From positions 2,852,001 to 2,916,000 of the forward strand of contig NZ_CP047393.1 of the NCBI RefSeq assembly GCF_009858175.1: 64,000 nt of DNA, read 5' to 3'. The notes under the pieces are model-generated. The model saw only the letters and a program-made list of their open reading frames with translations. It was not told the DNA's origin and searched no databases. Shown piece after piece: positions 13,987 to 41,285 of this stretch (positions within the stretch are counted from its first letter, which is position 1; each line of letters begins with the position of its first letter). The translations under genes were made by a program, and so were the position numbers. The DNA is from Pontibacillus sp. HMF3514. GTDB taxonomy: Bacteria > Bacillota > Bacilli > Bacillales > BH030062.

Positions 13987-14067
13987 GACCAGCCACCTCC
14001 AAGGTTAATTAAGAATAATATATCTGTCCTTGACAAGCTGTATTTTCTTGCTGGAATTTCTACAATC

Positions 14068-14209
14068 AAAAAAAGTGTCGGTACACATACTGCACCCACA
14101 CGTTTCCCATTACGTTCAGAAAAAATCGTACCTGGTAACTGCCCATAGTGGACGTCATGCAGGTGAGAAGCGGGTGCTTCTACTTGTCTCAGACAATATT
14201 TTGTTTACC
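14068..14209 (-). promoter_or_regulatory. L20-type autoregulatory leader of infC-rpmI-rplT
   Basis: The leader upstream of infC carries a GTTACCAGGTACG segment and then GTGTGGGT...ACCGACAC (14075-14101), which folds into a terminator followed by seven Ts on the minus strand (14068-14074). The GGGTGCAGTATGTGTACC block matches my recollection of the Rfam L20 leader. L20 binding in this class promotes premature termination. Confidence 0.8.
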
Positions 14210-14340: not shown

Positions 14341-15022
14341 TTATTCCATATAAGCCCCTTATGTTGAAGACTTGGAATCGAGATAAGTTGAGAGCAATCC
14401 GTTGCTTTTATGAGAGGTAGGGGTTCAGTGAAACGGCAATACTCCTGCGGAAGACCAGCTGAGCCTCCTCGTTCACTCCGTTGTCTGTGGGGTCTCATCT
14501 GCCCTTTCTACCGCGGGAGTTTGCCGTTTCCCTCACCCCCTTTGCTTTTATGGAGATTAACGGACCCTAGTGTGTGAGTTCTAAACCTTACGGACATCTG
14601 TTCCGTTATTTTGAACTTTTAAGGCATTTCGAGAGTCGTTACGGACATATGGTACCTTATTTGTGACAAATTGGGTTTTGTCAAGGTGATTTGATGCAAA
14701 TAACGGAATAAATGTCCGTAAGCTCTTCATAAAAGTCATATTAAGATCAAATAACGGAACAGATGTCCTTAAACATCACCTCTCCATATCACTGCGGTTC
14801 CGTTCATCACGATTCGGCTAAGGTGGGCTGTGGAACGGGTTGACTCCTCCGGAATAACGAGCGAGCGAGACCCCGCAAGAAGCGTAGCGTATGAGGAGGC
14901 TCGATCGTTCGTCCGGGGAAAGCAACCCGTTCCCAAGCCCACCGCACTCCACAATAGCAACGGAACCGCCTCTCTCACTAAAACAGTTATTCCAGATTAC
15001 TGCCATATAACTGAACAATAAA
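14341..15022. repeat. modular palindromic element SE1 (L-A-array-B-R)
   Basis: 682-base intergenic element between the infC promoter and the thrS terminator. Module order: left end (TTATTCCA...AAGCCCCTTATGTTGAAGAC, 14341-14390); palindrome A (14397-14566, ends TCCGTT/AACGGACC, inner AAACGGCAA/TTGCCGTTT); four 24-bp units at 14588, 14639 (direct), 14698 and 14749 (inverted); palindrome B (14794-14969, perfect 11-bp ends GCGGTTCCGTT/AACGGAACCGC); right end (CAGTTATTCCA...ATAACTG, about 14984-15013). Palindromes A and B share a GAGACCCCGC...GAGGAGGCT core that reads as spurious ORFs. It is 1 base longer than SE2 and very similar along its length. Confidence 0.88.
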
Positions 15023-21765: not shown

Positions 21766-21867
21766 CGATCATTACACCTCTTATTTATTATATCAAAAAT
21801 TTTCAAAGGATAAATACGTCATCGCGTTATTTATCGATTTCTTTTTTACCAAAAGATGTTTGTACCG

Positions 21868-22312
21868 TTAAATGGCAGTTATCTTGAATAAGCATTTTAG
21901 TGAGTGGGAGGGTCCGTTGCGTTAAAAAGAGGAAGGGGTCAGCTCTAATTAGCTGAATTTCCTTATTGCTTTAAAAGTGTTCTATGAATCTCATAGATAA
22001 CGTGAACAAGCTTTATATCAGGTGTTTGAGTCATCTTCTGTTTCATTATAGTAAAGCTTAACACAGGAATCAGAAACACGTATTATGCTGCGGTTCCGTT
22101 AATCTCCATATGGCTAAGGTGGGCTGGGAAACGGGCTGACTCCTCCGGATTAACGGTCGAGCGAGACCCCGTAGGGAACGTAGTGACTGAGGAGGCTCGA
22201 TCGTTCGTCCGGGGAAAGCAGCCCGTTTCCCAGCCCACCGCACTCCATATAAGCAACGGAAGCATACTCATCTTATCTCGAAAACAAGTCTTCCAGATAA
22301 GGGGGCTTAAAA
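21868..22312. repeat. modular palindromic element SE4 (inverted, A palindrome lost)
   Basis: About 445 bases between the hypothetical gene and speD. Read in reverse it has the order of SE3. The right-end module (TTAAATGGCAGTTATCTTGAATAAG, in part, from 21868) is followed by GGTCCGTTGCG at 21911. The expected A palindrome is missing: AAGGGGTC joins directly to the AGCTCTAATTAG spacer shared with SE3. Palindrome B follows at 22090-22263, its right tip decayed to AACGGAAGC. The inverted left-end module ends the element (CTTATCTCGAAAACAAGTC...GGAATAAG). Confidence 0.82.
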
Positions 22313-22334
22313 GGAATAAGATACATTTACATAT

Positions 22335-31161: not shown

Positions 31162-31842
31162 TTATTCCATTAAAGCCCCCTTATGTTGAAGACTTGGTTT
31201 CGAGATAATGTGCAGTGGAGGTCCGTTGTTGGAAAAGAGTAAGGGGTTCATTGAAACGGCAAGCCTCCTGTGGAAGACCAGCCGAGCTTCCTCGTTCGCA
31301 AGCTCTCTGCGGGATCTCGTCAGCCCTTTGCTACCACTGGAGTTTGCCGTTTCCTTCACCCCTTTGCGTTTATGGAGGTTAACGGACCCTAGTTATTTGA
31401 GCTCTAACCCTTACGGACATCTGTTCCTTTATTTTGAACTTTAAAGGTATTTCGAGGTTCGTTACGGACATATGGTACCTTATTTGTGACAGATTGCTCT
31501 TTATTAAGGTGATTTGCAGTAATTAGCGGAATGAATGTCCGTAAGCTCTTTAGAAAAACCATTTTAAGGTGAAATAGCGGATCAAATGTCCGTAAGCATT
31601 ACCTCCTCATATCGCTGCGGTTCCGTTCATCACCATTCGGCTAAGGTGGGCTTGGGAACGGGTTGACTCCTCCGGAAAAACGGGCGAGCGAGACCCCGCA
31701 AGAAGCGTAGCGGATGAGGAGGCTCGATCGTTCGTCCGGGGAAAGCAACCCGTTCCCAAGCCCACCGCACTCCACAATAGCAACGGAACCGCCTATCTCA
31801 CTAAAACAGTTATTCCATATTACTGCCATTTAATTGAATAAA
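31162..31842. repeat. modular palindromic element SE2 (L-A-array-B-R)
   Basis: 681 bases, same orientation and layout as SE1, between hflK and phoR. Left end at 31162-31210; palindrome A at 31220-31388 with perfect ends GGTCCGTT/AACGGACC; 24-bp units at 31411, 31462 (direct), 31521 and 31572 (inverted); palindrome B at 31617-31792 with perfect 11-bp ends; right end at about 31807-31842. The unit spacing 51, 59, 51 is identical to SE1 although unit sequences differ. The rest of the 992-base gap holds the phoR terminator and little else. Confidence 0.88.
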
Positions 31843-40688: not shown

Positions 40689-41285
40689 TTATTCCAGGAA
40701 AGCCCCCTTATCTTGAAGACTTGGTTTCGAGATAAGGTGAGTATGGTTCCGTTGCTTTAATGGAGTGCGGCGGGCTGGGAAACGGGCTGCTTTCCCCGGA
40801 CGAACGATCGAGCCTCCTCATCCGCTACGCTTCTTGCGGGGTCTCGCTCGCCCGTTTTTCCGGAGGAGTCAGCCCGTTTCCCAGCCCACCTTAGCCGTAA
40901 TGAGATTAACGGAACCGCAGCGTAATAAGTGTTTCTGTTTGGTATTTGTTAGTTGCACCTTAACAAGATAAAAGAGGGTTAGAGTCCTGAGATAAAGCGT
41001 TTTTATGGCATTTCTGATCTACATATAATACTTTTGATGCGCTATGGAAGATCAACTAATTAGAGCTGGGGTCGTTAACCTACATTCCAATGGGGGGAAG
41101 GAAACGGCAAACTCCCGCGGTAGAAAGGGCGGCCGAGACCCCGCAAGGAGCGTAGCGGATGAGGAGGCTTGGACGGTCTTCCGCAGGAGTATTGCCGTTT
41201 CAATGACCCCCACGCCTCACAAACGCAACGAACCCACCCTCTCACTCAGATGCTTATTCCAGATAACTGCCATATAACTGAATAA
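40689..41285. repeat. modular palindromic element SE3 (L-B'-spacer-A'-R)
   Basis: 597 bases between fxsA and pyk; it fills most of that gap. It has the same left end (TTATTCCA...AAGCCCCCTTATC) and right end (TTATTCCA...ATAACTG) as SE1 and SE2, but the inside is reversed. Palindrome B is inverted at 40745-40918, and palindrome A is inverted at 41070-41234 (ends GGTCGTT/AACGAACC, inner AAACGGCAA/TTGCCGTTT). The spacer at 40919-41069 lacks the 24-bp units and instead matches the SE4 spacer. Confidence 0.86.

Follow-up and report, generated by a model that had tools for sequence, protein, structure and literature searches.

The window analysed here, a stretch of 64,000 nucleotides, corresponds to genome positions 2852001-2916000 of Pontibacillus sp. 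HMF3514, whose genome is a single contig of 3,976,892 bases. Among named records, which may omit its own or very near ones, the closest ThrS is that of Halobacillus (82 per cent). Four composite palindromic elements (SE1-SE4) lie in it at the positions given by the original prediction, which was made from the letters of the window (Table 1). The internal orders proposed there are borne out as well: between the ends L and R, the palindromic modules A and B are arranged as L-A-spacer-B-R in SE1 and SE2 and as L-B'-spacer-A'-R in SE3. SE4 had been described as the reverse complement of the SE3 form; its orientation and form hold, but its set of modules is incomplete, A' being absent. Rfam matches in the window comprise an L20 leader at 14063-14191, beside SE1, and a Bacillaceae-1 RNA at 2030-2096.

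Table 1. Elements SE1-SE4 and their parts, in window coordinates
Feature	Position	Strand	Remarks
SE1, complete module including both end sites	14341..15018	+	form I, spacer family S1
SE1 left site	14341..14371	+	outer arm TTATTCCATATAA, core GCCCC (1 base short), inner arm TTATGTTGAAGAC; fitted to the site model
SE1 palindromic module A	14401..14570	+	
SE1 spacer, S1 family	14575..14785	+	contains inverted TTACGGACATNTGTTCCGTTA-like repeats internally
SE1 palindromic module B	14792..14967	+	tips GCGGTTCCGTT/AACGGAACCGC
SE1 right site	14987..15018	+	inner arm TTATTCCAGATTA, core CTGCCA, outer arm TATAACTGAACAA
SE4	21860..22319	-	form II, spacer S3, A' lost
SE2	31162..31841	+	form I, spacer S1
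SE2 left site	31162..31193	+	core GCCCCC
SE2 right site	31810..31841	+	core CTGCCA
SE3	40689..41285	+	form II, spacer S3
SE3 left site	40689..40720	+	core GCCCCC
SE3 module B, arm 1	40745..40920	-	
SE3 module A, arm 2	41066..41230	-	
SE3 right site	41254..41285	+	TTATTCCAGATAA CTGCCA TATAACTGAATAA

The family extends well beyond these four copies. Searched genome-wide, the left-end pattern (at most three mismatches) was found at 135 places and the right-end pattern at 62, compared with none for either reversed-pattern control. We fetched and mapped 111 left-end places among the 135, with slightly looser matching; one of them (1114022-; places outside the window are named by genome position and strand) is a site in a gene array described below. 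A right end scoring at least 20 of 32 was present at 108 of the 111. A and B had been predicted to have shared ends and a preferred order, and their independence in this genome is contradicted by the map, in which 66 places read A+...B+ (form I) and 30 read B-...A- (form II), the remaining 15 being partial, devoid of A and B or, in one case, a B-/B+ hybrid. Because A- aligns to B+, A and B are variants of a single palindrome, M, which gives the element the general layout L-M-spacer-M(inverted)-R; to judge by this alignment, what distinguishes the forms is the version of the palindrome that each arm contains. The same alignment speaks against simple inversion of the inside, which had been suggested to relate the forms and which we reject because the spacers are not common to both. 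Specifically, clustering of the 93 spacers longer than 40 bases gave two form I families, of 50 (S1) and 12 members, two form II families, of 18 and 10, and two others, of 2 and 1; no family is found in both forms, and the only spacer found both ways is S1 (43 in one direction and 7 inverted).

A and B are absent from eight mapped places, which comprise the array site 1114022-, a short one (989966-) and six (2708940+, 2578103+, 681613-, 886879+, 870001- and 2197467+) at which a 21-bp tandem repeat (...CGATTCCGTCACTTACCCGAG...) replaces the palindromes between the usual ends. As anticipated, no transposase was found inside: the longest open frames in 107 elements do not exceed 195 aa, and in the eight read by eye they pass through palindromes or 21-bp repeats. 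The elements sit at gene ends, with T-rich flanks on the left and A-rich flanks on the right. At the 53 places with enough flank, where open frames of at least 100 codons were considered, the neighbouring genes are convergent in 17 cases, tandem in 30, divergent in 2 and unclear in 4. A weak orientation bias is also seen (right replichore, 21 plus and 38 minus; left replichore, 30 plus and 22 minus; p 0.023, with the origin assumed at 0).

A single model, with two arms flanking a 6-bp core, accounts for both ends. The left end consists of outer arm TTATTCCATTAAA, core GCCCCC and inner arm TTATNNNGAAGAC, and the right end of inner arm TTATTCCAGATAA or GTCTTCAACAATC, core CTGCCA and outer arm TATAACTGAATAA; GCCCCC is present at 81 of 108 left ends and CTGCCA at 92 of 108 right ends. 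By this layout, each end is recognisable as a complete 11-6-11 site that resembles the dif sites of XerC/XerD. A two-arm search with a spacer of 6 returned 78 matches in 598 kb of the genome's own loci (overlapping loci counted twice), compared with 1, 2, 2, 1, 5 and 0 matches for spacers of 3, 4, 5, 7, 8 and 9; the eight spacer-6 matches inspected were seven element right ends and one array site. Conservation falls from the core to the outer arm, strongly on the left and moderately on the right. Among 89 elements of this genome, the right inner arm tracks the class of the module (z 9.9) and the right outer arm is borderline (p 0.064); no link to module class was found for the left outer arm (z 0.6, p 0.26) or the left inner arm. 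The terminal inverted repeats are imperfect and about 32 bp long. A form II module carries its two sites in inverse orientation; the right site of form I has an inner arm that matches the outer type, and the sites of form I are therefore not simply inverse copies. The two forms have about 20 bp in common at the right end and a longer stretch at the left end. A consensus search for bare docking sites in four genomes (at most three mismatches), which we estimate from arm variation would miss at least half of the true sites, gave seven matches, all of them element right ends.

To follow individual places, we turned to G003, a close relative that is about 90-95 per cent identical across the genes of the window. 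A search of 797 kb of G003 with the flanks of the 108 own elements gave 17 places at which both flanks are colinear. Four of the 17 are unoccupied in G003: the place of SE4 holds a bare 32-bp site, which is degenerate, and 989966-, 1636496- and 2970375- are short or deleted. At none of the 13 places occupied in both genomes is the same complete module kept. The form is switched at six (1675997-, 1694758-, 1709258-, 1756885+, 1763445- and 3588961-). Form I is kept at two, full-length in both genomes and still aligning at about 80-86 per cent over the arms, with a change of spacer family at 1650628- and of spacer direction at 1685690-. The G003 module matches no recognised type at 1628739- and 1741903+, and three elements are short in G003 (1021505-, 1908638+ and 3579447+), of which 3579447+, whose ends align at 83-88 per cent, may be one and the same module, shortened by loss of the middle.

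The arms of the sites were compared at the 12 places with a G003 insert of at least 200 bases, of which 10 were kept (one of them, 1741903+, out of register) and two were dropped, their site not being located; at these two, the outer arm is by eye common to both genomes. Outer arms stay with the place, 21.1 of 26 positions being identical versus 18.5 after shuffling (0 of 20000 shuffles; left arm alone p 5e-5, right arm alone p 0.009). For the inner arms of the same 10 places, no such association was found (20.1 versus 19.85 shuffled, p 0.37; left 0.85, right 0.24), this half of the test having less power because inner arms vary little. That the outer arms follow the place and the inner arms do not points to an exchange of modules by crossover in the cores. 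The earlier suggestion of modular mobilisation between fixed ends is thereby supported: in G003, the outer arms follow the place and the content between the cores changes.

Additionally, three G003 elements pair the left flank of one own element with the right flank of another (SE3 with 2931936+, 1904755- with SE2 and 1864854- with 3632197-), so that in G003, for instance, an element links the left flank of 1904755- with the right flank of SE2. Left-right polarity is kept in all three, and by eye the outer arm on each side resembles that of its own place. Homologous recombination between repeats could also yield these three joins.

One left-end match led to gene arrays, in which small genes, mostly single, alternate with recombination-type sites. 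The array site reads TTATCTCGAATTCAAGT-CTTCNNNWWWM-GGGCGC-WWWNNTGGAAT-AA, often with a terminator-like hairpin and a T run after it. Four arrays contain 15, 17, 18 and 19 sites on the cassette strand (score at least 19), two smaller places contain 6 and 2, and of the four gaps longer than 150 kb in the incomplete element map, three contain or adjoin the arrays. The cassette genes run in one direction, mostly singly, some units consisting of several genes or of insertion sequences, and some cassette sides are hairpin-like in appearance. When 74 cassettes were cut core to core, 16 pairs were at least 80 per cent alike over 60 per cent, some of them partial or alike through insertion sequences. 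In one pair, a 441-base cassette matches at 100 per cent from core to core, and 24 and 13 of 45 bases just outside are identical, part of which is supplied by the conserved site itself; in another, a 646-base cassette matches at 98 per cent, with 26 and 15 of 45 outside. The neighbours of both pairs are unrelated on both sides. Pairs of 730, 2687 and 3087 bases (100 per cent) are unrelated on one side and have the next cassette in common on the other.

Related proteins of about 2375 aa head two arrays (323058-330185 and 2451759-2458895), with nearly identical first 70 residues, and the one that was scanned contains RHS repeats. Five scanned cassette products of arrays 2 and 3 include one of SUKH type, one UPF0167 protein and three that match no family; array 1 encodes a 304-aa product with a match to DUF34/NIF3 and one of 635 aa that matches no family. 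Possibly, the arrays act as toxin-immunity reservoirs. At the head of each of the four (322767, 1109029, 2375502 and 2459186) lies a GGGCCA-core site, located on the other strand from the cassette sites, with both arms of the extended type in three of the four, and similar sites occur inside arrays (342095, 2370370 and 2441866). The GGGCCA site at the array start is possibly an attI-like cap. A 407-aa phage-type integrase (321357-322580) adjoins one cap and a 71-aa integrase remnant (2375700-2375873) another. Two transposase genes (2349007-2350224 and 2433620-2434837), presumably IS110-like, belong to elements whose ends abut array half-sites exactly at the core, the boundary falling between ...GCTGGTC and TTATGTGGAACAC; IS1111-attC elements in integrons likewise abut half-sites at the core.

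Array 1 encodes a 280-aa tyrosine recombinase (337109-337951), in which the six expected catalytic residues were seen by eye. It is 28-29 per cent identical to the XerD- and XerC-type proteins of the genome. Its score for the XerA-type model NF040815 of NCBIfam is 220.4 bits (cut-off 220), and it stays below the cut-offs of the XerC, XerD and integron-integrase models (for TIGR02249, 103.1 bits versus 265). Within the genus, G003 and G007 have two copies each and G002 a fragment; array sites lie within 1.5 kb of all five intact copies, the two G007 loci having 15 and 10 site matches versus about 1.2 expected. Across the order, 64 of 299 genomes and 36 of 116 genera contain homologues (E 1e-60 or better), which include fragments and relatives with 41-45 per cent identity. 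Array-type sites were sought at 12 recombinase loci outside the genus with a model of arms plus extension, which worked, a loose two-arm model being powerless even on known arrays. They are clear in G175 (13 matches versus 1.0 expected), whose locus has seven sites with core GCCCCC plus a palindromic pair, and in weak excess in G176 (four) and G104 (three; 1.3 expected each). Two further loci have one perfect site or a palindromic pair, and at seven of the 12 no sites above chance were found. No close homologue of the array recombinase was found in G001, G004 and G006, despite their 24, 31 and 106 left ends.

The left-end pattern was found in eight of nine genomes of the genus and its small GTDB family, two of them with a single match. 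As the original prediction stated, the A/B cores are widespread: they are present in 44 of 299 genomes and 21 of 116 genera of the order, the own genus included. By self-comparison, an inverted partner of the M core lies nearby at all five genus loci and at 3 of 19 others, and none was found nearby at the other 16; a strict pattern for a second M core was dropped because it missed the partner in known composites. Bare SE1, SE2 or SE4 sites were not recognised in 18 orthologous gaps of G001, G002 and G004-G007, of which the 14 shorter than 700 bases were scanned with a crude dyad score and the others by eye. At the place of SE2, G006 holds a diverged L-M-spacer-M'-R element.

We propose, with a probability of roughly 0.6, that the elements are gene-free modules between dif-like sites, exchanged by a Xer-class tyrosine recombinase through crossover in the cores. 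In each site, the outer half would be part of the chromosomal place, and the inner half would come with the module. Crossovers that pair left cores with left cores and right cores with right cores would swap modules between places, as in recombinase-mediated cassette exchange; a module would keep its orientation because the left and right cores differ, and if two places recombined by one crossover alone, a chromosomal rearrangement would follow. Sites of the same kind with a GGGCGC core would move single-gene cassettes in the integron-like arrays. Comparison between sequences brings out the sites and the core-located cassette boundaries, as well as the place-following outer arms, the changed insides and the rearrangements at elements; the last three, together with the constant orientation of modules, would be explained by core crossover. 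From these we infer the exchange reaction and its enzyme, for which the array-encoded Xer-like recombinase is the leading candidate. The near-absence of the predicted bare sites, the richness of G006 in elements that are not accompanied by an array recombinase and the small number of places compared count against core crossover. We are more tentative, at somewhat short of even odds, about the wider picture in which about 100 or more fixed docking places, each provided with its own outer half-sites, exchange gene-free modules via two incompatible cores, with an integron-like second system using its own Xer.

The same exchange could be carried out by host XerC/XerD, as assumed for the dif modules of Acinetobacter, instead of the array recombinase. 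The three genomes that carry elements and no array recombinase (G001, G004 and G006) would fit this alternative, as would the Xer-type genes of about 297 and 300-330 residues, which we take to be XerC and XerD, in all eight genus genomes, and the arms of the sites, which resemble the B. subtilis dif arm. However, array sites with the same arms surround a dedicated recombinase with the distance from XerC- and XerD-type proteins given above, and we consider host enzymes a rather unlikely agent. Another possibility is that the elements are MITEs spread by a DDE transposase in trans, the differences between genomes resulting from homologous recombination or gene conversion among copies. Imperfect terminal inverted repeats of about 32 bp, a high copy number and positions mostly at gene 3' ends (2 of 53 places divergent) are in keeping with MITEs; the left-end stretch common to the forms would suffice for homologous exchange there, and rearrangements located at repeats are also expected of homologous recombination. 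On the right, however, the roughly 20 bp in common are short for homologous recombination between forms, and gene conversion, though possible, would need tracts ending at the cores. The place is tracked by the outer and not the inner arms, insides other than M (tandem repeats) occupy the same ends, and no transposase-sized open frame was found in 107 elements of this genome. A check for target-site duplications of lengths 2-9 at the tested offsets found none in 105 elements, and a MITE with target duplication was rejected on this ground. Overall, we regard an origin as MITEs as unlikely.

Two further explanations appear far less probable. Selection on structured regulatory elements or terminators, with sequence turnover behind the differences between species, would agree with strong palindromes near gene ends and with the T-rich left and A-rich right flanks; it is hard to reconcile with six places in G003 that hold another known subfamily and not a drifted version, and we consider it very improbable. 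A REPIN-like nature, with mobilisation by the genome's only RAYT (Y1 transposase), is suggested by the one PF01797 gene of the genome and by palindromic, intergenic elements with a weak replichore strand bias (p 0.023). This gene (3433676-3434209) is flanked by palindromes of its own (AGTGCCTGACCCCCAC inverted-pair hairpins), and no significant similarity to the SEs was found at its locus, which led us to reject RAYT mobilisation; we give this explanation hardly any credence.

Other palindromic, intergenic repeats of high copy number include REPINs/RAYTs, ERIC, BOX and the bcr repeats of B. cereus; these are not known to have end recombination sites or to be exchanged at fixed places. If core crossover is true, it would supply a mechanism behind intergenic palindromes, a large class whose members, at least in this genus, lie within such modules, and the exchange of gene-free modules at fixed places raises the question of what the modules gain or do. 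Like integron cassettes, the array units mostly carry one small gene each, run in one direction, have recombination sites between them and are shuffled at a fixed point. Unlike integrons, they have a recombinase that reaches 103 of 265 bits (for a classification of tyrosine recombinases, see PMC8138268), an 11-6-11 site with core GGGCGC and a recombinase gene inside the array. The RHS-repeat protein at the array head and the SUKH-type cassette product recall the orphan toxin-immunity arrays of polymorphic toxins, as far as PMC3482391 describes them; unlike those, the units here are bounded by dif-like sites. In the open-licence literature searched, insofar as its texts were available, we found no dif-module or cassette system in Bacillota, for which an integron-like cassette system would be supplied if our reading is true.

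The closest parallels come from Acinetobacter, for which pdif sites and modules are defined in PMC13141974, a source that, in the portion available, describes the system as found uniquely in that genus, and chromosomal dif modules are treated in PMC12907356. If core crossover is true, modules of Xer type, which are portrayed as a speciality of Acinetobacter, would also occur in Bacillota. As far as these two sources describe them, the Acinetobacter modules likewise have two bounding sites, each with two arms around a 6-bp spacer, and likewise include inverse sites (here in form II only) and modules in arrays. The rearrangements reported there follow spacer identity; here, the cores are nearly fixed for each end, and the insides and junctions change between species. 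In contrast to the Acinetobacter modules as described, the dispersed modules here are gene-free, number about 100 or more on a single chromosome of the Bacillota and stand singly at places common to species, and the arrays encode their own Xer-like recombinase. Finally, unlike the dif modules on Rep_3/OrfX plasmids of Acinetobacter, those described here reside on the chromosome of a relative of the Bacillaceae (Bacillota).
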